Assembly: GCA_024278565.1 (NCBI GenBank)
Contig: JAJRSY010000333.1
Span: 1 to 39,113 of the forward strand
DNA from: Bacteroidota bacterium
GTDB taxonomy: Bacteria > Bacteroidota > Bacteroidia > Flavobacteriales > Flavobacteriaceae
DNA length: 39,113 bases
Reading direction: 5' to 3'
The notes under the pieces were generated by a model, which did no database searches, had not been told where the DNA came from, and saw only the letters and a list, made by a program, of their open reading frames with translations. This document shows, piece after piece, positions 613 through 39,113 of the stretch (the stretch's first letter is position 1; the number at the start of each line of letters is the position of its first letter). The position numbers were made by a program, and so were the translations under genes.

Positions 613-1443
613 ATGAGTAATAAAGACACAGCACTGAAAATATTTCAGGAACAAACTGTTCGTACCCATTGGGATGAAGAGCAAGAAAAATGGGTCTTTT
701 CCATTATTGATGTAATAGCAATTTTGGCAGATAACACTCGTTCGAGAAAATACTGGAGTGACCTAAAAAAGAAATTTAAAGATGAGGGAAGTGAACTGTC
801 CGAAAATATCGGACAGTTAAAAATGCTTGCTCAAGACGGTAAAATGCGACTAACAGATGTAGCAGATACCGAACAGTTATTTAGACTAATACAATCCATA
901 CCATCTCCTAAAGCAGAACCATTTAAACAATGGCTGGCAAAAATTGGAACAGAACGAATAGATGAAATTGAAGACCCCGAGTTAGCTTTTGACAGAGCAA
1001 TGGAAACGTATCTTAAAAAAGGTTATTCCAAAGAATGGATAAACCAACGCCTAAAAAGTATTGAAGTCCGCAAAGAATTAACTGACGAATGGGATACCAA
1101 AGGCGTAAAAAAAGGATTAGAATATGCCATCCTCACCAATGAACTAACCAAAGCTTGGGCAGGATTGGAAGTGAAAGATTACAAAAAACTCAAAGGACTT
1201 AAAAAGGAAAACCTCAGAGATAATATGAGCAATCTGGAATTGGTACTTAATATGTTGGCGGAAGCATCTACCACCGAAATATCCAAGCAAAAGAAACCGA
1301 AAAATTTTACTGAAAACAAAAAAGTAGCCAAAAAAGGTGGAGATGTGGCAAAAGCAGCTCGACTTAAATTGGAAAGTACTACGGGTAAAAAAGTGGTGAC
1401 AAAGCTCAATGCTAAATCAATAGCTAAAAAACTTAAGAAATAA
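613..1443 (+). CDS. Bro-N / DinD-like (phage antirepressor-type) protein
   Basis: 276-aa ORF; N-terminal 'WVFSIIDVIAILADNTRSRKYWSDLKKK' and 'LFRLIQSIPSPKAEPFKQWLAKIGTERIDEIEDPELAFDRAM' are typical of Bro-N family proteins. Confidence 0.8.
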   Translation: MSNKDTALKIFQEQTVRTHWDEEQEKWVFSIIDVIAILADNTRSRKYWSDLKKKFKDEGSELSENIGQLKMLAQDGKMRLTDVADTEQLFRLIQSIPSPKAEPFKQWLAKIGTERIDEIEDPELAFDRAMETYLKKGYSKEWINQRLKSIEVRKELTDEWDTKGVKKGLEYAILTNELTKAWAGLEVKDYKKLKGLKKENLRDNMSNLELVLNMLAEASTTEISKQKKPKNFTENKKVAKKGGDVAKAARLKLESTTGKKVVTKLNAKSIAKKLKK

Positions 1444-1480
1444 AATCTGTGGACATCAGCGTAATCTGCGAGAAAAAATT

Positions 1481-3184
1481 ATGAGAATACCATTAAACGA
1501 ATTTGAGCAACTTATTGATGAGAAGATTTTAAAAAGAGGACTTTCTTATTTTAAAGGAAGTGCAATAACTGATTTTTCAGAAATATCTAATGGAGAACCC
1601 GCCTGCCGGACGGGCAGGTATGAAGCTATTGTTTCGGGTACGGAAGAGTACACCGTTCAATTAGAGGTTAGTGACAATACCATTACCGAACATAATTGCG
1701 ATTGTCCTTATGATATGGGACCTGTTTGTAAACACGTAGTTGCAGTAATTTTTCATTTACAGCAAGATGAATTAGAATTAAATCAACCGAGTATTTCTAA
1801 ACCAAGAAAGAAAAAAACTAAATCCGTTTCTCAACAAGTAAAAGAATTACTAAAAGAAATTTCACACAAAGAGCTAATTGATTTTGTGCAAGAAAACAGC
1901 AAAAAGGACAAAAAATTTAGAAACTACTTTTTAGCATCCTTTGGGCATTTAAGTCAAAACCAATCAAAAGAATTTTATCAAAAACAAATCCATTCCATTT
2001 TACAATCTGCCGCAGGAAGAGACGGTTGGATTGGTTGGTCAGATATGAAATACGTAGTAAACACCACAGAACCGTTTTTAGAAAATGCTGAAAAATATTT
2101 AGCCAATAATAATTTCGAAAATGTATTTTTTATAAGTACAGCTTTATTGGAAGAAATGACAGAAGCGTTTCAATATGGAGACGATAGTAACGGTGATTTG
2201 GGTTATTTTGTAGAGTCGGCAATGGAATTACTTTCAAAAGTAGCACAAGAAAAACTTCCTAAAGCCTTAAAGGAAGAAATATTTGAATATTGTATTTATA
2301 CCTTTAATCAAAAATTATTTGACGGTTGGGATTGGCATTTAGGAATGCTTCATATTGCCTCTGAATTAGTCGAACAAGAAAGTGATGTAGATATAATACT
2401 TAGTTGTCTGGATACCATTAACGGAGAATATGAAAGAAAACGAGCTCAATCTTTTAAATTGGACTTATTAAGAAAGTTTAAAACTTTAAAAGAAGTTGAG
2501 AGATATATCAACAAACACATTTCAAACTCATCAATAAGAACAACAGAGATAGAAAAGGCATTTGAAAGTAAAAACTTTGAAAGAGTAGTAAAACTCTCAA
2601 AAGACGGAATTAAATGTGATGAAAAAGACAAACCAGGCTTAGTAAAAGTTTGGTACAATTGGTTGCTAAAAGTTTCTCAATCAGAAAAAGACACTTCTAA
2701 AATTATTAAGTATTCTCGATTTTTATTTATTGACAATTTTCATCCTGAACAGGATTATTATCAAATCCTAAAAGATAACATTGAGGATAAAAATTGGCAT
2801 CCATTTTTAGAAGAAATAATAAAAGAAATCACTCCTAAACAGAGATGGACATACACTGAATTAATTCGAAAAATATATATTAAAGAAGAATGGTGGGATA
2901 GGTTATTTATTATGCTTAAACAAAATATATCTATGGAGAGCATTCAACAAAATGAGCAATATTTATCAAAAGACTATTCTTCTGAATTGATTGAATTGTA
3001 CAGCGAAAGAATTATAAATTACGTTGAAAAATATATAGGAAGAAATCACTACCAAACAGCTTGCAGGTATTTACGTAGAATGAAAAAGTTGGGTGGGAAA
3101 GAAAAAGTAAATGAGTTAATAGAATTATTCAGAAAACAATATCCACAACGTAAGGCACTAATGGATGAATTAAACCGAGTGTAA
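1481..3184 (+). CDS. SWIM zinc finger domain protein
   Basis: CxCx(n)CxH motif 'CDCPYDMGPVCKHVVAVIF' near the N-terminus; long helical C-terminal region. Confidence 0.85.
   Translation: MRIPLNEFEQLIDEKILKRGLSYFKGSAITDFSEISNGEPACRTGRYEAIVSGTEEYTVQLEVSDNTITEHNCDCPYDMGPVCKHVVAVIFHLQQDELELNQPSISKPRKKKTKSVSQQVKELLKEISHKELIDFVQENSKKDKKFRNYFLASFGHLSQNQSKEFYQKQIHSILQSAAGRDGWIGWSDMKYVVNTTEPFLENAEKYLANNNFENVFFISTALLEEMTEAFQYGDDSNGDLGYFVESAMELLSKVAQEKLPKALKEEIFEYCIYTFNQKLFDGWDWHLGMLHIASELVEQESDVDIILSCLDTINGEYERKRAQSFKLDLLRKFKTLKEVERYINKHISNSSIRTTEIEKAFESKNFERVVKLSKDGIKCDEKDKPGLVKVWYNWLLKVSQSEKDTSKIIKYSRFLFIDNFHPEQDYYQILKDNIEDKNWHPFLEEIIKEITPKQRWTYTELIRKIYIKEEWWDRLFIMLKQNISMESIQQNEQYLSKDYSSELIELYSERIINYVEKYIGRNHYQTACRYLRRMKKLGGKEKVNELIELFRKQYPQRKALMDELNRV
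1598..1618. repeat. Palindromic element inserted in frame in the SWIM gene (encodes PACRTGR)
   Basis: cccgcctgccggacgggcagg, identical to 236-256; begins exactly on codon 40 and is 7 codons long. Confidence 0.85.
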
Positions 3185-10132: not shown

Positions 10133-10144
10133 TGACATTTGTCA
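10133..10144 (-). promoter_or_regulatory. Crp/Fnr-type site upstream of usp
   Basis: TGACATTTGTCA (TGA-N6-TCA); on the minus strand TAGTTTTA (10109-10102), a -7-like box, starts 35 bp from the site start. Confidence 0.7.
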
Positions 10145-10285: not shown

Positions 10286-10999
10286 CTACAATCTTTCTAC
10301 TAGCCCTTGAAGTTCCTTTTTGGCAATAATACCGATTTTTTTGCCAGAAGTTTTCAACCATCCCTTTTTCTTGAAATCTGATATAATTCGTATACAAGAT
10401 TCGGTAGCGGTACCCACTACATTGGCAATATCTTCACGAGACAGGGTGAGTAGTAGAAAGCCCTCTTTATCCTCCCCGAAATTATTTTTCAAGTACAAAA
10501 ATGCTTCGGCAACCCGCTGTTTCACCGTTTTTTGAGACATATTTACGATGACATCATCTGACTCTCTAAGGTCATGGGCCATATGGCGCAAAAGCTCAAT
10601 GGCAAAAGCAGGGTTTGTGTTCAATGTTTGTATAATATTCTCTTTCGGAATAAAACAGACCTCCATATCATTTACGGCAACCGCACTTAAATTGGTGGAT
10701 TCTTCTGAAATAACAGAACGTTGGCCCAAAACTTGGCCCTTGGTGACCAGTTTTACAATTTGATCCTTACCATTGGCACTTAACTTAGAAAGCTTGGAGA
10801 TACCCTTACGAACGCAGAAAACCCCATCAAGTTTCTCTCCTTCTTCGAACAGTACCTTACCCTTTTTGATGAACTTGGTGGTTTTGGAATCTGAAACTTC
10901 TTTCAATTCTTCTTTGTTCATAGCGCGCAGCGCATTGAACTGACGAATGATGCAATTTTCACATTTACTTTCCATGACCATGGTATTAATACCCAACAT
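10286..10999 (-). CDS. Crp/Fnr family transcriptional regulator
   Basis: cNMP-like beta-roll plus C-terminal wHTH ('LSREDIANVVGTATESCIRIISDFKKKGWL'); N-terminal CENC. True start may be 10981 or 10975. Confidence 0.92.
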   Translation of the reverse strand: MLGINTMVMESKCENCIIRQFNALRAMNKEELKEVSDSKTTKFIKKGKVLFEEGEKLDGVFCVRKGISKLSKLSANGKDQIVKLVTKGQVLGQRSVISEESTNLSAVAVNDMEVCFIPKENIIQTLNTNPAFAIELLRHMAHDLRESDDVIVNMSQKTVKQRVAEAFLYLKNNFGEDKEGFLLLTLSREDIANVVGTATESCIRIISDFKKKGWLKTSGKKIGIIAKKELQGLVERL

Positions 11000-11036: not shown

Positions 11037-11048
11037 TGATTTATATCA
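11037..11048 (+). promoter_or_regulatory. Crp/Fnr-type site between crp/fnr and ccoI
   Basis: TGATTTATATCA; CAACTTTG (-7-like) at 11072, 35 bp from the site start. Confidence 0.7.
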
Positions 11049-13968: not shown

Positions 13969-13980
13969 TGATAAAAGTCA
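13969..13980 (+). promoter_or_regulatory. Crp/Fnr-type site upstream of ccoS-ccoNO
   Basis: TGATAAAAGTCA with perfect -7 box TAGTTTTG at 14004-14011, 35 bp from the site start. Confidence 0.8.
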
Positions 13981-23892: not shown

Positions 23893-23922
23893 GCCTTTAC
23901 TCAAAGGCTACGGCTTTTTTTT
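23893..23922 (+). terminator. Possible terminator between convergent globin and nrfD genes
   Basis: GCCTTT-actc-AAAGGC followed shortly by an 8-9 T run. Confidence 0.45.
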
Positions 23923-25134
23923 GTTATATCGAAGCTTCCCCGTCTCGATCCCGATCGCGGTTTTGGCCAACATGGTAAACACAAAAGCACCCAAGGCCCA
24001 TATACCCATTGTCACCCCTATCTCTATTCCCGTGGGTGTATACTCGGCTATTTTACCATAAGGGCCGGGAATAAACCCAGGTACGATAAGACCAAATCCT
24101 TTCTCGATCCAAATAGCAACGAATAAAATAAAACACGCAAAGAACAGTACTTTAAAATTATTTCTGAGTTTATGGAACGTAAGAATTACCGTAGCCAATA
24201 CATTTAAAGAAATGGCCGTCCATATCCAAGGCAATAAAGCTGTTTTCCCGTCCAATCCGAAGAATAGATAATATGCGCTTTCGCTATGGTGCGTTGGTGC
24301 GTAAAACTCCTTGAACAATTCTGAAATCAACATGATCAAATTTATCTGGGCGGCAACAGTGACTACCAGTGCTATTTTTTTTATGGTTTTATCTTTAATT
24401 ACAAATTCGGTATAGGTCCTTATAACGGCCAATACCAAAATAATCAATGCGGGGCCGGCCGCGAAAGCCGATGCCAAAAAGCGCGGTCCCAAGAGTGCAT
24501 TGTTCCAAAACGGACGTGCTTGTAGGCCTTGGTACAAAAAAGCGGTCACCAAATGAATTCCAACAGCCCAAAATACTGAGATCAATGCCCCTGGAATATA
24601 TACTTTTGGGTTCGGCTCTTTACCTTGATAACGCATAAAAAGAATATAAAACGGAATACTTATATTAATGAACAAATAACCGTTCAATGCAATAACATCC
24701 CAAGCCAACATAGAGTTTGGAAAGTTAAATACACCTATTCCCGGTATCATGTGCCATAAAACAGAAGGTCCTCCCATATCCGCAACTACAAAAGCCAAGC
24801 ACATAATCAATGCAGCTACGGCCAAACCTTCGCCAATGAGCACGGCTTGCTTAAAATCAATATCCTTTAGCACATAAGTAGGCATTACCAACATTACGGC
24901 AGCAGCGGCAACGCCCACCAAAAAGGTGAAATTGGAAATATACAGTCCCCAACTTACCCTGTCGGTCATTCCCGTAACGCTCAGCCCATGTTCTAATTGA
25001 ACTGAATAGCAGTACATGCCCACTAACATGACCAATGTTAAAAAAGCCATCCAGATATGGTATTTTTTTGAACCATGGGTTATGGTCTCCAAACTGTCCT
25101 TTACCAAACTACGCAAAACCCTAAGTCGTCTCAT
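23908..25134 (-). CDS. nrfD: NrfD/PsrC-family polysulfide-reductase-type integral membrane subunit
   Basis: Multi-TM quinone-interacting family: 'SWGLYISNFTFLVGVAAAAVMLV', 'WDVIALNGYLFINISIPFY'; next to 4Fe-4S subunit. Confidence 0.88.
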   Translation of the reverse strand: MRRLRVLRSLVKDSLETITHGSKKYHIWMAFLTLVMLVGMYCYSVQLEHGLSVTGMTDRVSWGLYISNFTFLVGVAAAAVMLVMPTYVLKDIDFKQAVLIGEGLAVAALIMCLAFVVADMGGPSVLWHMIPGIGVFNFPNSMLAWDVIALNGYLFINISIPFYILFMRYQGKEPNPKVYIPGALISVFWAVGIHLVTAFLYQGLQARPFWNNALLGPRFLASAFAAGPALIILVLAVIRTYTEFVIKDKTIKKIALVVTVAAQINLIMLISELFKEFYAPTHHSESAYYLFFGLDGKTALLPWIWTAISLNVLATVILTFHKLRNNFKVLFFACFILFVAIWIEKGFGLIVPGFIPGPYGKIAEYTPTGIEIGVTMGIWALGAFVFTMLAKTAIGIETGKLRYNKKKP

Positions 25135-25250
25135 TTTATATGTTGTTATTAACGTGGCGACAATAGACCAATAGACGCTGAACATTAAACCGGCAGGCGT
25201 TAGACCTTTAACCTTTTAACCATTAACCTTTCTTCTTTCTTCATGGTAGT

Positions 25251-26372
25251 TTAGTCCATAAAATACCAGAACTTAGGCTCTGTTCCCAAGTCTTCTTTGA
25301 GCCTAAAAACCTTTTTGTTTTCCAAAACCCAGCGAATGGTACTATCGGGATCTAACAGATTTCCGAAAATACGCGCTCCTGTAGGGCAAGCGTCCACACA
25401 GGCAGGATTTTTGCCCACACGTGACCGTTGTACGCAAAAGGTGCATTTTTCCACGACCCCTTTTTTACGCAACCTATTTCCTAAATAATGTTGGTTTTTG
25501 TTCACTTCCTTCTCTGGCACCTCGGGTGTGCTCCAGTTAAAACGACGGCCATCATAAGGGCAAGCAGCCATACAGTACCTACAGCCTACGCACCAATCAT
25601 AATCTACCACCACCAGGCCATCATCTTCCCGCCATGTTGCCTGTACAGGGCATACCTCTACACAAGGGGGGTTGTCACAGTGAAAACATTGGGTGCCCAT
25701 ATAAAAATGCCCTTCTGCCGGAACCTCATGATAATAATTGTCATCAGCTTCATTGAAGTTGAAACCCTTGCCATCTTTCATTTCGTGAATACGTATATAC
25801 TCCATTTGTGAATTTCTGTCCAGGTTGTTCTCTTCGACACAGGCAGTGACACAGTCCATATACCCTTGGCATTTAGAGATGTTGAACGCATAGCCAAAAA
25901 GAACATCTTCTTCTGCATTTTTTGAAGACATACTAATGTTCTTGCCTGTACGCAATTGGTAGGAGCGAACCAATCTACCCACAGTCGATTCCTTTTCGTC
26001 ACGGGTCATTAATTTATAGTTGCCCTTGAATTGTTCTTCCCAATCAATTTGGGCTTTTTCTTTGGTCTCATCCCCTGCGATCACACTGCAAGATGTACTT
26101 ACGGCGCCAGCACCAATGAGCAAACTTGCGGTTAATTTTTTAAAGGCGGTCCTACGGTCCATCTGTACATCGAAAACCTGTTCAAAACCATCTTTTGTTC
26201 GCTCTTCGGCAATGGTGGCATCTACAGCGGCATCAAAATCCGCATCTCTAAGATGGTCGTTGCCAGAAGAGTTGCACCCTTCGGATGTCTTACCGCACTC
26301 ACAAGTGCCCGGTTCTTGTTTTTTCTTGTTACTAAGGTTTAGAGAAAACCATTTTTTATTGTTATTGTCCAC
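25251..26372 (-). CDS. Four-cluster 4Fe-4S ferredoxin-type protein (DsrO/NrfC-like)
   Basis: 'CQGYMDCVTACVEENN', 'CFHCDNPPCVEVCP', 'CVGCRYCMAACPYDGRRFNW', 'CTFCVQRSRVGKNPACVDACPTGA'. Confidence 0.9.
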   Translation of the reverse strand: MDNNNKKWFSLNLSNKKKQEPGTCECGKTSEGCNSSGNDHLRDADFDAAVDATIAEERTKDGFEQVFDVQMDRRTAFKKLTASLLIGAGAVSTSCSVIAGDETKEKAQIDWEEQFKGNYKLMTRDEKESTVGRLVRSYQLRTGKNISMSSKNAEEDVLFGYAFNISKCQGYMDCVTACVEENNLDRNSQMEYIRIHEMKDGKGFNFNEADDNYYHEVPAEGHFYMGTQCFHCDNPPCVEVCPVQATWREDDGLVVVDYDWCVGCRYCMAACPYDGRRFNWSTPEVPEKEVNKNQHYLGNRLRKKGVVEKCTFCVQRSRVGKNPACVDACPTGARIFGNLLDPDSTIRWVLENKKVFRLKEDLGTEPKFWYFMD

Positions 26373-26378
26373 ATCTGG

Positions 26379-27002
26379 TTATTTACGTTCTTTAACTTTT
26401 TGGGTATTATACCGTGCCGGCCATTTAGATTTAAAATGTGGTTTATGCGGATTATGGCAATTGACACAGGTCATTGATGCCCGTGGCGGTGCCCAACCGG
26501 CGATCTTCTTGCCATGTGCGCCCCCTTTCCAATCTTCAAATTGCCTAGTATGGCATTGTGCACATAATCGATGACTGGCATTAAAATTTATTTTGGTCCC
26601 TGTTATACTTTTTAAATCATCCATATTTGCACCATCGTGACAAGTTGCACAGTTCATCGTATTCGTATCGGCATGTTCTGTGGCAATCTGCCAATGTGCT
26701 TTTTTTACACTACTTTGCATTTGGTGCAAAGGTTTTGAATGGCATTCTGAGCAGGTATATGATTTTATCTGGCTTTTACGTTCCGGTATCAAGAAGGTAT
26801 GTTCGTTTTCTGTAACTTCAATTGTTTTAATGTCGCCTATATATTTTTCGGATGAAATTGAGGTGCCATGGAAATTTTTGCCCTCAGCTTCGATTTTATC
26901 GGTTATACTATGGTATTCACCTTCTTTATGTTTGCAAGAAAACACCAACAGTACTAAAAAGAAAGCGCAAATAAAATTGATCGCTATATGGTGTCTATTC
27001 AT
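26379..27002 (-). CDS. Tetraheme cytochrome c lipoprotein (cytochrome c3-like)
   Basis: Lipobox-like 'FLVLLVFSC'; four CxxCH: CSECH, CATCH, CAQCH, CVNCH. Confidence 0.85.
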   Translation of the reverse strand: MNRHHIAINFICAFFLVLLVFSCKHKEGEYHSITDKIEAEGKNFHGTSISSEKYIGDIKTIEVTENEHTFLIPERKSQIKSYTCSECHSKPLHQMQSSVKKAHWQIATEHADTNTMNCATCHDGANMDDLKSITGTKINFNASHRLCAQCHTRQFEDWKGGAHGKKIAGWAPPRASMTCVNCHNPHKPHFKSKWPARYNTQKVKERK

Positions 27003-27684
27003 TTTTGTTTCTTTCAAAAATTCCTATATCCATAATTTCTTTGTTGTTCGGCACATGACATTGTCTACAATTGATACGCTCTGGGTGTGACACTCTGATT
27101 TCTTTGGGGGCACTTGGACCGGCATGGCATGACATACAGTTTTCCCTCATCTGTATTTCGTGTGGAATAATAGGGGGGCTTCCGTTCAAGGCATTATTGG
27201 TTCCGGTCAAGGGCATGGGTATTTTTTCGAAATGTGATTCTTTAAACAATGTTTGCGTATGTTGTGGCACATGGCATTGGCGACAATTGATCATTTCAGG
27301 GTGCGGTGCTACAGGGGCATAGGCATTCCATTTATCTACAAAACCACCATTTTGATGACATTTTAAACAACTGTTGCCCCCCATATTCCGTTCCCCTGCC
27401 ACTGGATGCGGAATATATGGTGGTGCACCATGAAATGCCCTATTGTCATAATAGGTGCTCAAGGAGCGTTGATGGTTTATATCCATAGGTACGTTTGCAT
27501 ATTCCAATACAAACCCTGAACGTTGAAAAACCCCGATTTCCGAAGGGATAACAGGAAGTTCTTTCTCTTTCTGTATAGGAATATAGGCTTCCTCCAAGCC
27601 TGTTTGATAGCTGTAGTTCCAAACCACAATGAACACTATGAACAATACTATGAACAATGATATGACAACCAATCGTTTTCCCAT
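26995..27684 (-). CDS. napB: NapB-like cytochrome c with duplicated diheme module
   Basis: Four CxxCH in two modules: 'GAPPYIPHPV..CLKCH..PHPEMINCRQCHVP' and 'GSPPIIPHEI..CMSCH..SHPERINCRQCHVP'; adjacent to napA. Confidence 0.82.
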   Translation of the reverse strand: MGKRLVVISLFIVLFIVFIVVWNYSYQTGLEEAYIPIQKEKELPVIPSEIGVFQRSGFVLEYANVPMDINHQRSLSTYYDNRAFHGAPPYIPHPVAGERNMGGNSCLKCHQNGGFVDKWNAYAPVAPHPEMINCRQCHVPQHTQTLFKESHFEKIPMPLTGTNNALNGSPPIIPHEIQMRENCMSCHAGPSAPKEIRVSHPERINCRQCHVPNNKEIMDIGIFERNKNE

Positions 27685-27687
27685 AAA

Positions 27688-30012
27688 CTATACTTTTTCG
27701 ACTTTAACGGCACATTTTTTATAGTCCGGTTCTTTAGAAATAGGGCAAAATGAATCTAAAGTAATTTCATTGATCAGCATATTCTCATCAAAAAAAGGCA
27801 CAAATACCTGCATGGGCGCAGGTATCCCCCTTTGATTTACAGAAGCTGGCAGTATAATCTCACCACGTCTGGTGGTCAGCTTTACCTTGTCTCCTGTTTG
27901 TATGTGCATTCTTTTTGCATCTTCTGGGTTTACCTCTACGTATGCATGGGGCATCGCTTTATGTAATACGGGAATTCTACGTGTCATAGAACCTGTATGC
28001 CAATGTTCTACCACACGGCCGGTACATAACCAATATGGGTACTCTGTATCTGGCGATTCGGCGGCAGGTTCATACGGGCGCTGCCATATAATGGCTCTGC
28101 CATCTGATTTTCCGTAAAAATGAAAGTCTTTTCCATTAGTACAGGCAGGGTCGTATTTAGCATTGAACCGCCATTTGGTGGATTTTCCGTCAACATAGGG
28201 CCACAGCACCCCCGGTTGCGACTTTAATACCTCTAGGGGAGCCATGTTGTGTTTTTTGCCAACATGGTGTTTTCTATATTCATTGTATATTTCCTCAATG
28301 TGGGTTTCCTCTTTATAATGGAACTGTTTTTCGTAGCCCATACGCTTGGCGACTTCGATCAATTGCCAAGTATCACTCATGGCTTCTCCTGGCGGATTGA
28401 CCATTTGTTCAAAATACTGGGTCCTACGCTCAGAATTACCGTACATTCCTTCACGTTCGATCCACATGGCCGATGGCAATATAACATCGGCTATATCGGT
28501 TGTTGGTGTCGGGTATATATCAGAAACCACTATAAACCGTCCTTCTTTTTTTGCACCATCCCTATAGCGTTTTAACTTTGGCATCGTTACCATTGGGTTC
28601 GTCACCTGGATCCACATAAAGCGAATATCGCCCCTGTCCAAGGCCCTGAACATTTCCACCGTATGGTATGTGGGCTTTGGGTCGATATTTTCAACAGGAA
28701 CATTCCATATCTTAGCAGCAAACTCACGGTCTTTTTTGTTCATTACCACACCATGGGGCAGTTTGTGCGTCAATGTACCCACTTCCCTTACGGTACCACA
28801 AGCTGATGGTTGCCCTGTTAAAGAAAACGGACTGTTGCCCGGTGCAGAGATCTTACCTGTCAGTAAGTGAATATTGTATATTAAATTGTTCATCCACGTT
28901 CCCCTAGTGTGCTGATTTGGCCCCATGCACCAAAATGACATCACTTTTTTATTGGGATCGCCATAATAAGCTGCCATATACTTAATGTCCTTTACAGAAA
29001 CGCCCGATATCTTTTCTACTTTTTCTGGTGTATAATCTTCTAAAAAATCTTTATAGGCATTAAAATCTATCTTTTCCGGTTTGTCTTTGAATTTGTAATT
29101 ATCTTTTAGCCCATAGCCCATATTGGTGAGGCCTTTGCTGAAGTTACAATGCCTTTCTACAAATGACCTATTGACCCAGCCATTTTTAATGATCTCATAA
29201 CAAATGGCATTGGCAACTGCCAGGTCTGTTTGGGGAAGAAATAAAATAGACTTATCCGCAGCCATACTGGTCCTAGTAGTCCTGGTAGCGAAATCTATGA
29301 TTTTCACACCTCGTTTCAAACGCTGATCCAACAATCTTGAAAATAGAACAGGGTGCATTTCAGCCATATTGTTTCCCCATAATACAAACACATCGGCATA
29401 ATCTATATCTTCATAGCAGCCCATAGGCTCATCCAGTCCAAATGACGTTAAAAAACCCGTAACTGCGGTAGCCATGCACAAACGCGCATTCGCTTCCACA
29501 TTATTGGTGCCGATGCACCCTTTGAAAAATTTTGAGGCCACATAGCCATCAGGAATCGTCCATTGCCCTGAGCCATAAATAGAAACTGCGTCCTTACCAT
29601 GATCTTTAATGGTTTCCTTCATTTTAGAAGCGATCAGATCCAAAGCTTCTTTCATTGAGGTTTCAACATATTGACCGTTTTTCTTTACCAATGGCTTGGT
29701 CAACCTGTCTTTACCGTACATGGCTATTACGGAATGGTATCCTTTTACACAACATAACCCTTTGTTGACACTGGATTTCGGATCGCCTTTTACCGCAACG
29801 GCCTTTCCGTTTTCCACACCTATTAAAACACCGCAGCCTACACCGCAAAATCTACAAGGAGCTTTTTTCCAATCAAGATCGGCATTTTTTGGCAGGCCCT
29901 CTTCTTGCTCTTCTGCAAATAATATTCCCGGAAACATAGTCGCTGCAGCCGTCATGGCCGACAACATTGCCATTTTTTTAATAAAACTTCGTCTATTGGC
30001 AAGAGAGGTATA
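27688..30012 (-). CDS. napA: Periplasmic nitrate reductase catalytic subunit (Mo-bisMGD, 4Fe-4S)
   Basis: Tat signal 'RRSFIKKM', 'CRFCGVGCGVLIGVENGKAVAVKGDPKSSVNKGLCCVKGYH', 'NVEANARLCMATAVTGFLTSFGLDEPMGCYEDID', 'MGPNQHTRGTW'. Confidence 0.94.
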   Translation of the reverse strand, partial: YTSLANRRSFIKKMAMLSAMTAAATMFPGILFAEEQEEGLPKNADLDWKKAPCRFCGVGCGVLIGVENGKAVAVKGDPKSSVNKGLCCVKGYHSVIAMYGKDRLTKPLVKKNGQYVETSMKEALDLIASKMKETIKDHGKDAVSIYGSGQWTIPDGYVASKFFKGCIGTNNVEANARLCMATAVTGFLTSFGLDEPMGCYEDIDYADVFVLWGNNMAEMHPVLFSRLLDQRLKRGVKIIDFATRTTRTSMAADKSILFLPQTDLAVANAICYEIIKNGWVNRSFVERHCNFSKGLTNMGYGLKDNYKFKDKPEKIDFNAYKDFLEDYTPEKVEKISGVSVKDIKYMAAYYGDPNKKVMSFWCMGPNQHTRGTWMNNLIYNIHLLTGKISAPGNSPFSLTGQPSACGTVREVGTLTHKLPHGVVMNKKDREFAAKIWNVPVENIDPKPTYHTVEMFRALDRGDIRFMWIQVTNPMVTMPKLKRYRDGAKKEGRFIVVSDIYPTPTTDIADVILPSAMWIEREGMYGNSERRTQYFEQMVNPPGEAMSDTWQLIEVAKRMGYEKQFHYKEETHIEEIYNEYRKHHVGKKHNMAPLEVLKSQPGVLWPYVDGKSTKWRFNAKYDPACTNGKDFHFYGKSDGRAIIWQRPYEPAAESPDTEYPYWLCTGRVVEHWHTGSMTRRIPVLHKAMPHAYVEVNPEDAKRMHIQTGDKVKLTTRRGEIILPASVNQRGIPAPMQVFVPFFDENMLINEITLDSFCPISKEPDYKKCAVKVEKV

Positions 30013-30019
30013 CATAATA

Positions 30020-30259
30020 TCAATCGTTTTGTGGTGCATTGAATCCAGAGACCATGGCCAAAAATTTCAGGCTTTCCAAGGTATCTAATTTTTTTTTGAG
30101 TATTTCTTCTTCTATCTGATCTTCGGTATCGGTAACAACAATTACGACATCTTTGTTCTCAGCGGGCATTACCTCACATTGACCAATGGTGGATAGTGCA
30201 TTGACCAGTTCTGCTTTTTTGCCCTTATGGGAATGGGCCAAATAACTTTTAATCGGCAT
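30020..30259 (-). CDS. napD: NapD-like chaperone
   Basis: 79-aa ORF ahead of napA; 'MPIKSYLAHSHKGKKAELVNALSTIGQCEVMPAENKDVVIVVTDT' pattern fits NapD. Confidence 0.7.
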   Translation of the reverse strand: MPIKSYLAHSHKGKKAELVNALSTIGQCEVMPAENKDVVIVVTDTEDQIEEEILKKKLDTLESLKFLAMVSGFNAPQND

Positions 30260-33720: not shown

Positions 33721-33793
33721 AATATATCCGCCGGTTTAATAATAAACCCTCGGTTAAACATAGTTGAACAATTATACGAACCAAAGTACAACA

Positions 33794-34708
33794 ATGATCA
33801 ACATAACACATAAAACAAATACCCTGAGAACCGCAACCGCCCAAGCGATACTAAAGGTGGGCAAACCCGAGACCATAGTTGCGATCCAAAATAATACCGT
33901 TCCTAAAGGTGATGTCTTTGCAATGAGCAAAGCTGCCGGGTTGCTCGGTGTAAAAAAAACCCCGGACATACTGCCGGACTGTCACCCACTACCCATAGAA
34001 TATACAGGTATCGAGTACAAGATCACCAAGTTAGAAATCACGGTCCTCTGTACGGTCAAGACCATTTACAAGACAGGTGTCGAGGTCGAGGCCATGCACG
34101 GGGCAAGTGTGGTGGCCTTGAACATGTACGATATGTTAAAGCCCATAGACAAAGGTATTGAGATCCATCATATTAAATTATTGGAAAAAAAAGGAGGAAA
34201 ATCTGATTTTAAGGATACGTTCCGAAAAGATATTACAGCAGCTGTTGTTGTATGTTCAGATAGCATTTCCGCAGGCCAAAAAGAAGATAGGGCAGGAAAA
34301 AAAATCATTGAAAAGCTTAAAGAGAGTGATGTCGTTATTTCTGAATACTGTATTATTCCCGATGAAACGGAAATCATACGATCCAAGGTAATGGCATACC
34401 AACAAGAGGGCATAGATCTTATAATTTTCACAGGGGGAACAGGCTTATCAAAACGCGATGTCACCACTGAAGCCCTCGAACCACTATTGGACAGAAGAAT
34501 ACCGGGAATCGAAGAGGCCATTCGCAGTTACGGACAAAACAGAACACCGTACTCAATGCTGTCAAGGAGCATTGCCGGAACATTTAAGGGTAGTCTGGTT
34601 TTGGCATTGCCAGGCTCCACCAACGGGGCAAAAGAATCTATGGATGCCATTTTTCCGGCGATATTGCACATTTTTAGAATATTCAAAGGCGCAAGACACG
34701 ACTCATGA
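33794..34708 (+). CDS. moaCB: Fused MoaC-MoaB/MogA protein
   Basis: MoaC part 'AAGLLGVKKTPDILPDCHPLPI..GVEVEAMHGASVVALNMYDM', then MoaB/MogA part 'VVVCSDSISAGQKEDRAGKKI..FTGGTGLSKRDVTTEAL..LPGSTNGAKES'. Confidence 0.93.
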   Translation: MINITHKTNTLRTATAQAILKVGKPETIVAIQNNTVPKGDVFAMSKAAGLLGVKKTPDILPDCHPLPIEYTGIEYKITKLEITVLCTVKTIYKTGVEVEAMHGASVVALNMYDMLKPIDKGIEIHHIKLLEKKGGKSDFKDTFRKDITAAVVVCSDSISAGQKEDRAGKKIIEKLKESDVVISEYCIIPDETEIIRSKVMAYQQEGIDLIIFTGGTGLSKRDVTTEALEPLLDRRIPGIEEAIRSYGQNRTPYSMLSRSIAGTFKGSLVLALPGSTNGAKESMDAIFPAILHIFRIFKGARHDS

Positions 34709-35712
34709 ACAAAGAACAACATCTATTGACCGATACTTTTGGAAGACAACATAACTATCTTCGTATCTCACTTACCGAGCGCTGTAATTTACGCTGCACC
34801 TATTGTATGCCCGAGGAAGGGATTGCACTTTCACCCAAATCGCACATTATGTCGTTCGATGAGGTTTACAGCATCGCAAAAATATTTGTGGACCACGGGG
34901 TCACCAAAATAAGGCTTACCGGTGGTGAGCCTATGGTCCGCAAAGATATTCCCGTGATTTTAAAACAATTGGCATCTTTGCCCGTTGAACTGTCACTTTC
35001 TACCAACGGAATCAATATTGATAGGTTTATCGATACTCTTAAGGCAAACGATATTCACAATATAAACGTGAGCTTAGACTCTTTGGATGCTGAAAAATTT
35101 CATCAAATTACCCGAAGAAATTATTTTGAAAAAGTATATAACAACATTTTGCTCTTGGCAACCAATGGGTTTAAGGTGAAGATAAATACCGTTTTGATAA
35201 AAAATTTCAATGACAATGAAATAGTCGATTTCATCGAGCTTACCAAAAATATTCCCGTCACCATTAGATTTATCGAGTTCATGCCATTTGATGGCAATAA
35301 GTGGGACTTAAAGAGAATGATCTCTTATCAAGAGATCATGAACACCGTTTATAGGGTTTTTTCGCAAAATCGTGTCCATCGCTTGTTGGACGCTCCCAAT
35401 GACACCTCTAAAAATTACAAAATAGAAGGCTATAAGGGCAGCTTTGCCGTTATCAGTTCAGTTACCTCCCCGTTTTGTGGCTCCTGTAACAGATTGCGGT
35501 TAACGGCCAACGGCCAACTCAAAAATTGTCTGTTCTCGGCCTCGGAATCTGATTTGCTCACCGCCCTTCGCAAAGGGGAAAATATAGAACCCGTCATACA
35601 AAAAGCAGTACAGGGCAAACTTGGAATACGGGGTGGAATGGATACTTTAGAGAAATTAAAGACACCTCGCTTGCACACAAAGAACAGAAGTATGACCACC
35701 ATCGGGGGCTGA
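34705..35712 (+). CDS. moaA: GTP 3',8-cyclase (radical SAM)
   Basis: 'LTERCNLRCTYCMPEEGI', 'RLTGGEPMVRKDI', 'CGSCNRLRLTANGQLKNCLFS'. Confidence 0.95.
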   Translation: MNKEQHLLTDTFGRQHNYLRISLTERCNLRCTYCMPEEGIALSPKSHIMSFDEVYSIAKIFVDHGVTKIRLTGGEPMVRKDIPVILKQLASLPVELSLSTNGINIDRFIDTLKANDIHNINVSLDSLDAEKFHQITRRNYFEKVYNNILLLATNGFKVKINTVLIKNFNDNEIVDFIELTKNIPVTIRFIEFMPFDGNKWDLKRMISYQEIMNTVYRVFSQNRVHRLLDAPNDTSKNYKIEGYKGSFAVISSVTSPFCGSCNRLRLTANGQLKNCLFSASESDLLTALRKGENIEPVIQKAVQGKLGIRGGMDTLEKLKTPRLHTKNRSMTTIGG

Positions 35713-35724
35713 ACCTATCTGCCC

Positions 35725-36930
35725 TTACCGCAATGGCCTCAAATTAATTGCCAACATAAACAGTAAGCTCAAAGGAACCGCCATACTGGCAAGGGCCAAT
35801 ATTTCAAAATACCCTTCCAAAAGAGGGGCTTTTTGCCAAGCCATTATTCCTTTATAGAAAATTAAGCCCTCAGTAGCGATAAAACCTAATATGTAGACGA
35901 AATATACCTTTTTGGGTAATTGTAACAACTTGTAATATTCCAAAAACAAAAATAACCCGAGGGTCGTTACACCCAAAAATGTCCAATGCAAATACCCAAT
36001 AACAAAATCGGTTATGGTGGCCGCCAAATTTGAAAAATAAGGAATTGCCGATAGCAATTGAAGCGTCATTTTCATTGCTAAAATAATGGTCGTGGTCAGT
36101 AGTATGCTCTTTTGGAACGGAGAAAAAACATCAGATAGCATTATTCTCGATTTTGAAAATGCCTTAAGAAGAATTACGAAGGCCATAATTTGGAGCACTG
36201 CGCCCATTGCCCCCAAAATAAACAATACTTCGGAAGGCTTTGTCCATAAGGTAGACAAAAAAAAAGTAAGTACGGCCCCTAAGTTCATACTCCAAAAAAA
36301 ATGTTTGAACGACCTCTTGGGGATTTGAACATTGTTTTCTTCCAGCGTATAGAACAATATTCCCAGAAGTGCTAGAATCATCCATCCATTGTATTGAAAA
36401 TGCAGATAAAAATAGATGGCCAGTCGATACCAGACTGACTCTGGCCCAAGGGTGGCCGTGACCCCGCCGAGTACCCACGGCCCCAAACTCGACAAAACCA
36501 TATACCACAAAGCAAACTTTACACACCTATAAGAACAGGTATTCTTATATGATGCAGGAACATTATTAATAAAAAACCAAGTAAACCAATACGATGCAAA
36601 CAAAAACAGGGTGGAAAAAATAATTGAAAAAAGGGCATAGCCCTGAAATGGGAAACTCAATAGCATACCCACCAACGTAAACTGGGTAAACCAAAAAAGA
36701 ATACGGTATTCCTTATCTCGGCCTTGCTTGTTCAAGTATAGCATATAGAGTAATGTGGTCAATGCCATATACACCCAGCCCAATAAGGCAATATGCGAAT
36801 GTGCATGAACGATATACCGATAATCCGCAGGTATTTTCACCGAAATATAGAACCTTAAAACAGTGCCCAATACCGCAGCAAACAAAAAGTAAGCCAACGC
36901 CAGCTTGGCATGGTTTTTTAAATTGAACAT
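35725..36930 (-). CDS. Heme-copper oxidase subunit I-like / NnrS-like multi-TM protein of uncertain function
   Basis: ~12 TM segments; repeated His motifs 'HAHSHIALLGW', 'HFQYNGW', 'HWTFLGV'. Upstream start at 36984 also possible. Confidence 0.55.
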   Translation of the reverse strand: MFNLKNHAKLALAYFLFAAVLGTVLRFYISVKIPADYRYIVHAHSHIALLGWVYMALTTLLYMLYLNKQGRDKEYRILFWFTQFTLVGMLLSFPFQGYALFSIIFSTLFLFASYWFTWFFINNVPASYKNTCSYRCVKFALWYMVLSSLGPWVLGGVTATLGPESVWYRLAIYFYLHFQYNGWMILALLGILFYTLEENNVQIPKRSFKHFFWSMNLGAVLTFFLSTLWTKPSEVLFILGAMGAVLQIMAFVILLKAFSKSRIMLSDVFSPFQKSILLTTTIILAMKMTLQLLSAIPYFSNLAATITDFVIGYLHWTFLGVTTLGLFLFLEYYKLLQLPKKVYFVYILGFIATEGLIFYKGIMAWQKAPLLEGYFEILALASMAVPLSLLFMLAINLRPLR

Positions 36931-36978
36931 CATATAAATGTTTTTTAGAAAGCCAATTGGGTATTTAATGTGATTAAC

Positions 36979-36990
36979 TGACAAATATCA
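36979..36990 (+). promoter_or_regulatory. Crp/Fnr-type site between the divergent orphan genes
   Basis: TGACAAATATCA followed by tattttta as at ccoI; AAAATTTG (-7-like) at 37015, 36 bp from the site start. Confidence 0.7.
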
Positions 36991-37079
36991 TATTTTTAGA
37001 TCTTATTATTTAGGAAAATTTGTCGTTACCGAACATTTTTCACTTATAAAATTGTTGTTTACCTTAAATAAATTGTGTT

Positions 37080-38876
37080 ATGACAAATACCCATTCGTTC
37101 CATATTCCCGTAATGGGAATTGGCTTCACCATTGATTCTCCTTTAAAAGTCTCACAGTTTGGCATCGACTCTGTCATTTCATTGGTAGATGATATTCTCT
37201 TGGAGAAGCTAAGAAAAATGTATTGCGAGAAATTTGAGCAACCTTACACTGAGATCACTAATAAAATGGCAGATTTCAGAGCAAAAAGAATTACTTCCTA
37301 TCTCGATCTTGTTCATGGTATTGCCAAAGAAAAATTTGAAGAACTTAAGAACATCACCATTGAATCTGGTGTTGACATAAAGAAATATTTTTCAATGTTA
37401 CCGGATACGTCTTCGTTAAAGCAAGAATTCAACCACCTTACCAAAGACTATTTCAATGTAGAGGAAATCAAAACTTGGGCAAAAGAAAATTTGACCATGG
37501 GCAGTATCGATGTAAATATCATGACCAAGGTCGATAAGGACAATTACGTGAAAAAAGAAAAGCTTCTCCCCGAGTACAATGATGCGCACGCCGCACTAAG
37601 GGGTTACGCAAACAGTGGCCTTGGGTCGTCGTTAATTCTTTCTGCTGGCATGAACCCTAGGCTCTATAGTTATATGGAGCAGTTCGATGATTTTTACCCT
37701 GATGAAAATGGATCTATAAAAAAGAAGATAGTATTGAAGGTCAGTGATTATAGGTCGGCTTTGATACAAGGAAAATTCTTGGCAAAAAAAGGACTATGGG
37801 TTTCAGAGTACCGCATTGAATCAGGGCTAAATTGTGGCGGACATGCATTTGCCACCGAAGGGTATCTTATGGGTCCGATCCTAAATCAGTTTAAAGAAAA
37901 CAAAGAAGAATTGAAGCAAACGGTACATGAGATCTTATCGAAGGCCTTGGTCAATAAAAACCGTATCGTTCCAAAAACCACATTGCCCTTAAAATTAACG
38001 GCGCAGGGTGGCGTTGGCACAACAGAAGAACACAATTTTCTATTGGATCATTACAAGATGGATTCTGTAGGTTGGGGCACCCCCTTTCTTTTGGTTTCAG
38101 AAGCTACCACAGTTGATGGTGCTACAGTGAAAAGTCTGGTAAAAGCTAAAGAAGATGACCTGTACCTTAGTAATATTTCCCCACTGGGCATTCCTTTTCA
38201 TAGTTTAAAGGGAAATACCAAGGATATGGAAAAATCAAAGCGAATGGCAAAAGGCACCCCTGGAAGCTCTTGTCCGAAAAAGTTCGTGTCACTGAACAAA
38301 GAATTTTTAGATACGGGTCTCTGCACCGCATCAAGACAGTACCAGTATTTGAAAATAAAAGAATTGGATCAGCAAGGGCTCTCTGAAGAGGATTACAATT
38401 ACCACTACAACAAAATAACCGAAAAATCATGTACCTGTGTCGGTTTGGGCACATCTGCCCTACTTGTATATGGGTTGGATACAAAAACCGAAGGTGAAGG
38501 TGTTTCAGTATGCCCAGGGCCCAATTTAGCTTATTTCTCCAAAATACTGGGGTTAAGTGAAATGGTAGATCATATTTACGGTAGAACCAATGTGATAACA
38601 AGAACTGACCGTCCGAATATGTTTGTCAAAGAGCTTCATATTTATCTAGAATACCTTAAAGAACGTATTACCGAAAACATTATCGATACGACAGATAAGC
38701 AACGAAAATATTTATTGTCCTTTGCCAATAATTTGAATGAAGGCATAAGCTATTACCAAGAATTGTTCACTAAACAAAAAGAAGGTTTTATGGCGACCAA
38801 AGACCAAGTTTTCAGTGAATTGAACGAAGGAAAGCAGACTTTAAACAAAATGGTACGGGAAATAGAAATATTATAA
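37080..38876 (+). CDS. Uncharacterised 598-aa protein, possible FMN-type TIM-barrel/nitronate-monooxygenase-like with Cys motifs
   Basis: Long ORF; 'ALIQGKFLAKKGLWVSEYRIESGLNCGGHAFATEG', 'KLTAQGGVGTTEEHNFLLDHYKMDSVGWGTPFLLVSEATTVD', Cys in 'SSCPKKF', 'GLCTAS', 'KSCTCVGLG', 'VCPGP'. Confidence 0.6.
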   Translation: MTNTHSFHIPVMGIGFTIDSPLKVSQFGIDSVISLVDDILLEKLRKMYCEKFEQPYTEITNKMADFRAKRITSYLDLVHGIAKEKFEELKNITIESGVDIKKYFSMLPDTSSLKQEFNHLTKDYFNVEEIKTWAKENLTMGSIDVNIMTKVDKDNYVKKEKLLPEYNDAHAALRGYANSGLGSSLILSAGMNPRLYSYMEQFDDFYPDENGSIKKKIVLKVSDYRSALIQGKFLAKKGLWVSEYRIESGLNCGGHAFATEGYLMGPILNQFKENKEELKQTVHEILSKALVNKNRIVPKTTLPLKLTAQGGVGTTEEHNFLLDHYKMDSVGWGTPFLLVSEATTVDGATVKSLVKAKEDDLYLSNISPLGIPFHSLKGNTKDMEKSKRMAKGTPGSSCPKKFVSLNKEFLDTGLCTASRQYQYLKIKELDQQGLSEEDYNYHYNKITEKSCTCVGLGTSALLVYGLDTKTEGEGVSVCPGPNLAYFSKILGLSEMVDHIYGRTNVITRTDRPNMFVKELHIYLEYLKERITENIIDTTDKQRKYLLSFANNLNEGISYYQELFTKQKEGFMATKDQVFSELNEGKQTLNKMVREIEIL

Positions 38877-38977: not shown

Positions 38978-39113
38978 CGTCCTGAAATAGGTTGACTAAA
39001 AAACGAATAAAAAGTCAACTTAAAACAGGACAAAATGAAAACAAAAGAAACGCTAAGTGAACAGAGTAAACGTAGAATAGTATCGGAAGTTCTATCGGGA
39101 AAATATACCAAAG
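38978..39113 (+). mobile_element. Left end of an IS3-family-like insertion sequence (truncated by window end)
   Basis: 'gtcctgaaataggttgac' end-like sequence followed by OrfA-like start. Confidence 0.6.
39035..39113 (+). CDS. IS3-like OrfA transposase, N-terminal part only
   Basis: MKTKETLSEQSKRRIVSEVLSGKYTK..., HTH-type OrfA start; runs off the window. Confidence 0.6.
   Translation, partial: MKTKETLSEQSKRRIVSEVLSGKYTK

Follow-up and report, generated by a model that had tools for sequence, protein, structure and literature searches.

A PfaD-like protein family of Bacteroidota with invariant cysteines and a predicted Fnr-type promoter, linked to low-oxygen and nitrogen-oxide genes

Locus and predicted features

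Near its right end, the window (the whole 39,113-nucleotide stretch analysed here) encodes a 598-aa protein on the forward strand, with an ATG start (37080-38876). An earlier note had drawn the left edge of this feature at 36979, which is the first base of a predicted Fnr-type box (TGACAAATATCA), and had placed it beside a molybdopterin/nitrate cluster. That location is borne out by the neighbouring genes, which include MoaA (34705-35712), a MoaC fusion, MoeA, NapA and a cco operon. The features referred to below are as follows.

36979..36990, no strand: Fnr-type operator TGACAAATATCA, fitting the consensus TGAYN4RTCA, 90-101 bp ahead of the start codon and also upstream of a divergent 12-TM gene; conserved in homologues
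37080..38876, forward strand: 598-aa protein of a new family with a predicted PfaD/FabK/NMO-type barrel and a Cys-rich C-terminal region; from the ORF, homologues, fold and Cys conservation
37095..37133, forward strand: SFHIPVMGIGFTI at the N-terminus, residues 6-18; putative counterpart of the FMN-proximal motif I (x-P-M-x-G type) in the NMO/ER superfamily
37818..37850, forward strand: ESGLNCGGHAF, residues 247-257; counterpart of motif III, with H255 as the candidate catalytic residue and C252 invariant, from conservation and hhalign
38001..38021, forward strand: AQGGVGT, residues 308-314; candidate loop for the FMN phosphate (PfaD has AAGGIGT), from the alignment
38070..38108, forward strand: GWGTPFLLVSEAT, residues 331-343; last barrel strand/loop, pairing with GSxNQxxxEAG of PfaD in the alignment
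38271..38513, forward strand: Cys set C398-x16-C415-x35-C451-x-C453-x24-C478, invariant in 120/120 homologues; candidate Fe-S (or other metal) site

Other parts of the window were also annotated. An unusual electron-transfer module for a periplasmic nitrate reductase occupies 23911-30039 on the reverse strand: the gene for a NapA that passes the curated NapA cut-off precedes those for two multihaem cytochromes, for an Fe-S protein resembling DsrO and for a membrane subunit of the DsrP/NrfD type. The MoaC at 33764-34708 (forward strand) is joined in one protein to a MogA/MoaB-like domain (MoCF_biosynth). Genes for a Bro-N domain protein and for a protein with a SWIM zinc finger lie at the contig's left end (613-3184, forward strand), apparently unrelated to the respiratory genes, and the right end carries the start of a transposase-like ORF (MKTKETLSEQSKRRIVSEVLSGKYTK..., 39034-39113, forward strand).

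Distribution and conservation of the family

Searches of Pfam, NCBIfam and PDB sequences returned no family or chain matching the 598-aa protein, either alone or as a profile, in line with the earlier note, which had called it uncharacterised; CFAP77 and apolipoprotein helices came up in these searches as chance matches only. There was likewise no match in a viral fold library or among viral contigs, and no homologue on plasmids. A GTDB-wide scan with peptides of the 598-aa query recovered 44 loci, all from Bacteroidota in the broad sense (Flavobacteriaceae, Prolixibacter, Marinilabiliales, Bacteroidales MAGs and one Ignavibacteria). The gene was detected in 47/150 relatives and in 113 of 297 sampled Bacteroidota genomes (38%), normally as one copy per genome; 112 of these carriers entered the co-occurrence counts below, the one left out being a fragment. 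The protein is probably a cytosolic oxidoreductase of an unnamed family, and this family, found in over a third of the sampled Bacteroidota, is absent from both Pfam and NCBIfam.

The data support both the family itself and the invariance of its cysteines. Among 120 full-length homologues (40-100% identity), 85 positions were conserved in at least 119, and C252 (LNCGGH), C398 (SSCP), C415 (GLC), C451 and C453 (SCTC) and C478 (VCPGP) were invariant in 120/120, down to 40% identity. These are the Cys motifs that the earlier note had picked out as conserved-looking, and all six of their cysteines proved to be so; a further cysteine of the protein, residue 49, is not conserved.

Motifs I (x-P-M-x-G) and III (xEAGGH) of the NMO/ER superfamily have been defined previously (PMC13311796). 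A counterpart of motif III with a catalytic-type His is present in the family: N251-H255 is invariant in 120/120 homologues, and hhalign pairs NCGGH with DSGGH of PfaD (the longer forms being ESGLNCGGH in the family and ADSGGH in PfaD). In the candidate motif I signature, H8-G13 is invariant, with H5, F7, P10, V11 and G13 kept in at least 119/120 homologues; the near-invariant IPVMGIG at this N-terminus was left unaligned by hhalign and falls in a low-confidence stretch of the model.

Fold prediction and profile comparison

An AlphaFold2 model of the protein, built from a 31-sequence alignment (pLDDT 75.7, pTM 0.77), shows strands that alternate with helices, as in a TIM barrel. In a Foldseek comparison of this model with the PDB, the top places went to the PfaD proteins of two Shewanella species and to the PfaD-type enoyl reductases of DfnA and MlnA (E 7e-5 to 1e-3, probability 0.99-1.00), and the matches that followed had E above 0.01. 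For a second model, of a homologue 50% identical to the window protein (pLDDT 70), the six best matches were again these proteins (E 6e-6 to 8e-4). The TIM barrel plus lid of PfaD was matched as topology only (probability 1.00, E down to 6e-6): TM-scores were low (0.25-0.30) and the whole-length superposition was loose, and we therefore take the likeness to PfaD as shared topology and not as close structure. Confidence in both models is intermediate (pLDDT 76 and 70), and lowest in the invariant loops for the putative FMN and cluster. Thus, the barrel resemblance proposed in the earlier note is supported, with the nearest fold being a PfaD-type enoyl reductase and not, as had been suggested there, a nitronate monooxygenase.

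For profile comparison, ten PfaD proteins were gathered from public plasmid records, several of them unannotated, with a composite query that served as a probe only. Aligned by hhalign, the family matched PfaD at P 3e-4, the best of 28 targets, and at P 8e-5 when the N-terminal half was used alone; of 26 control families most gave P above 0.1 and the best 0.019, and a small FabK/NMO set gave a non-significant P of 0.059. The aligned stretch pairs NCGGH...AQGGVGT with DSGGH...AAGGIGT and runs on to the GTPFLL / GSxNQ segment; the two paired elements correspond to motif III, with its catalytic His, and to the glycine-rich loop that comes after it in the NMO/ER superfamily. Significant sequence-level homology to PfaD is confined to the region around GGH...GGVGT (C-terminal half alone, P 0.63), and the global and C-terminal-only hhalign comparisons with PfaD were uninformative.

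The aligned PfaD proteins have one invariant Cys, in WCGP, which by eye resembles the CPGP around C478; the remaining family cysteines found no counterpart among them. Because these PfaD proteins lack the extra cysteines, except perhaps one, the family looks like a new branch of the PfaD/FabK/NMO-type barrel with a probable Fe-S site, as judged from sequences and models. From their invariance we infer that the five extra cysteines of the C-terminal lid region most likely hold an Fe-S cluster, and these five together with C252, beside the putative catalytic His, suggest that such a cluster would lie near the flavin.

A conserved Fnr-type box

The earlier note had also pointed to a promoter site in common with ccoI. 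This site was found as TGATTTATATCA at 11037-11048, between crp/fnr and ccoI, and both it and the box at 36979-36990 run on as ATCATATTTTTA. Upstream regions of homologues (up to 300 bp) contained TGAYN4RTCA in 39 of 64 cases, usually as ATGAYNNNNRTCAT followed by TATTNT, compared with 0.97 expected and a maximum of 4 in 200 first-order Markov shuffles; the 64 regions include related strains, such that the 39 boxes are not 39 independent events. Across 69 dereplicated loci, the box occurred within 250 bp before 24/69 family genes and 38/786 other genes (Fisher p 1e-12). In the same loci it also preceded 5/7 ccoI, 5/9 ccoNO, 2/4 crp and 2/5 hemN genes, and in related loci some nadA genes. Over the window as a whole, enrichment was weak (7 boxes versus 2.3 expected), and the significance of the box therefore comes from its conservation. 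Homologues of Prolixibacter, Bacteroidales and Ignavibacteria were without the box.

The Crp/Fnr regulator encoded at 10286-10999 was closest to Fnr among the models compared, below the cut-off, and has CENC at its N-terminus. The predicted operator is conserved upstream of the family gene and common to known low-oxygen genes, as would be the case for a member of an Fnr regulon, and a low-oxygen regulator probably switches the family gene on alongside genes for low-oxygen respiration and nitrogen-oxide handling.

Further TGAYN4RTCA boxes lie at 10133-10144, upstream of a universal stress protein gene, and at 13969-13980, ahead of ccoNO. The box at 36979-36990 is common to the 598-aa gene and to the divergent gene at 35725-36984 (reverse strand), which encodes a hydrophobic, apparently polytopic membrane protein with a likely start near 36930. 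This protein contains HAHSHIALLGW and had no match in Pfam, NCBIfam or PDB.

Gene neighbourhood and co-occurrence

Recurrent neighbours of the family gene in the dereplicated loci were the cco operon (10), an Rrf2 regulator (9 of 69), nosZ-D-F-Y (8), nadA (8), nadB (6), the NO-repair gene RIC (6), hemN (5) and crp (4). Among the 297 genomes, nosZ lay within 15 kb of the family gene in 16 of the 55 that have both (0.4 expected), and RIC in 18 of 75 (0.5 expected), often adjacent to it; direct adjacency to RIC was seen in about a dozen genomes, with close adjacency concentrated in one family (f37). RIC also co-occurred with the family gene phylum-wide (75/112 carriers vs 33/185 non-carriers, OR 9.3, p 2e-17) and among mostly one-per-genus relatives (OR 4.3); neither these linkage counts nor the co-occurrence counts carry a correction for phylogeny. 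Co-occurrence with FixO alone was weak (OR 1.7, p 0.06), and no link to the family gene emerged for NrdD, used as an indicator of an anaerobic lifestyle (NrdD in 18/297 genomes, with most carriers lacking it).

The family gene goes with low-oxygen and nitrogen-oxide metabolism. It lies beside nosZ clusters, RIC, ccoNOP, hemN and nadA at rates well above chance and is strictly tied to no one of them; its linkage is closest with RIC and nos and looser with cco. Neither RIC nor nosZ was found in the window's genome (85% complete), and 57/112 carriers are without nosZ. Within the window's genus, the family gene is present in G000 (the window's genome), G013 and G014, nosZ in G013, G002, G005 and G011, and close NapA orthologues in G000, G009 and G012. 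Given these nosZ-positive and NapA-positive congeners without the gene, neither nitrate nor N2O reduction depends on it obligatorily, and the idea that it is needed for either respiration was dropped. The tie to low-oxygen and nitrogen-oxide metabolism that the earlier note anticipated is seen in the linkage to nos, cco and RIC, and does not extend to a need for the gene in Nap or Nos function.

Proposed function and alternative explanations

Taken as a whole, the observations are best explained, with a probability that we put a little above even, by an Fnr-controlled oxidoreductase that would combine a PfaD-type FMN barrel with an Fe-S cluster. The earlier reading, a redox protein that resembles an FMN barrel, may bind a metal cluster and has an Fnr-type promoter, is supported to this extent, whereas FMN, the cluster, the regulator that binds, the substrate and the reaction are what we infer. 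The Crp/Fnr protein encoded at 10286-10999 would probably act through the box at 36979-36990, inducing the gene when oxygen is low or nitrogen oxides are being respired. The protein would have an FMN-binding TIM barrel and lid in common with PfaD-type enoyl reductases (FabK/NMO superfamily), with H255 of NCGGH as the histidine that transfers the proton, and the cluster may pass electrons such that O2 is unnecessary. By analogy with FabX or NGO1024 (see below), the reaction that we favour, though with a probability well below even, would be an oxygen-independent dehydrogenation/isomerisation or a reduction of an acyl thioester; since fatty-acid genes were absent from the recurrent neighbours of the family gene, an acyl substrate is proposed by analogy within the superfamily.

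The main rival is a role in nitrogen-oxide metabolism or nitrosative stress, in which a flavo-Fe-S protein working with RIC and nos would detoxify NO or a nitro/nitronate product, or repair NO damage. The co-occurrence with RIC, which persists in the relatives sampled mostly one per genus, the direct RIC adjacency, and the proximity of nosZ and Rrf2 all favour it. However, the window's own genome yielded neither RIC nor nosZ, about half of the carriers lack nosZ, several nosZ-positive or NapA-positive congeners lack the family gene, the closest RIC arrangement is concentrated in f37, and Fnr control in common could by itself explain the linkage, so that we regard this role as rather unlikely. 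The hemN and nadA/nadB neighbours, together with the boxes before some hemN and nadA genes, would instead fit an oxygen-independent step in redox-cofactor or heme/NAD biosynthesis carried out by an FMN/Fe-S barrel (cf. HemN for heme and NadA/NadB for NAD). These neighbours vary by clade, however, and no common pathway gap was identified, which makes such a step less probable still.

Two further alternatives concern the nature of the protein. It could be no FMN enzyme but a metal-binding or regulatory protein derived from a TIM barrel, which would accommodate the low confidence of the key loops in the models and the fact that FMN and Fe-S binding are predictions; but the active-site-like GGH and GGVGT motifs are invariant or nearly so and pair with those of PfaD, and we give this slightly less weight than the cofactor-biosynthesis role. 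An ordinary PfaD, acting as enoyl reductase for a secondary-metabolite or PUFA synthase, would account for fold matches that are PfaD and trans-AT PKS enoyl reductases. It was already weakened by synteny, there being no PKS or PUFA synthase genes among the recurrent neighbours of the family gene, and it sits poorly with the extra invariant cysteines, the lack of TIGR02814 detection and the identity of about 13% in the fold alignment; we consider it very improbable.

Beyond the preferred reading of an Fnr-controlled FMN/Fe-S oxidoreductase, it is conceivable, albeit doubtful, that the family is a new FMN/Fe-S enzyme class in roughly a third of Bacteroidota, which would carry out an important O2-free biosynthetic or detoxification reaction in denitrifying or low-oxygen growth, with a function unrelated to PfaD, FabK or nitronate monooxygenase. 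Regulation and neighbours place the family in low-oxygen and nitrogen-oxide metabolism, and thereby define a testable gap in what is understood of how these bacteria cope once oxygen is exhausted, nitrous oxide reducers included.

Comparison with known systems

PfaD/PksE-type FMN enoyl reductases (TIGR02814; PDB 4z9r, 6lkc, 4cw5 and 4z38) were the top fold match of the family twice. The order of the GGH and GGIGT motifs is common to both, as is a long C-terminal lid region that ends in C-G-P or a CPGP-like motif (an equivalence drawn by eye). They differ in that the family has C398, C415, C451 and C453 in addition, together with Fnr-type control. No sampled genome exceeded the TIGR02814 cut-off; the weak match in the window's genome was to an NMO/FabK-type ORF (at C49) and not to the 598-aa gene, and matches across Bacteroidota were weak and partial, mostly to short NMO/FabK-type proteins. 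FabK and nitronate monooxygenases, of which the window's genome has one (that at C49), resemble the family in their GGH and GG(V/I)G motifs, but at about 315 aa are half its length.

Gonococcal NGO1024 (Npd/UfaA), of the NMO family, is induced in anaerobic, nitrite-respiring growth (PMC3032703; PMC11300592) and, as cited in PMC11300592, has been reported to be essential for anaerobic unsaturated fatty-acid synthesis. It is like the present family in being an NMO-superfamily protein with anaerobic induction, and unlike it in belonging to a different family, a comparison made on grounds other than sequence.

FabX of Helicobacter pylori, of the NMO family, contains FMN and a [4Fe-4S] cluster, the latter in a C-terminal subdomain that replaces the NAD(P)H-binding part; its cluster ligands are C300/C304/C308/C320, and it keeps the catalytic His that is conserved in NMO proteins (PMC8626469). 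The 50 best fold matches listed did not include FabX. The family may resemble it in pairing an FMN barrel with a C-terminal Fe-S subdomain and in the catalytic His, but its C-terminal region is larger and its cysteines are spaced differently (398/415/451/453/478), and we therefore treat FabX as an analogy and not as evidence of membership. If the family does carry both FMN and an Fe-S cluster, it would join FabX as an example of a cluster gained within this barrel superfamily.
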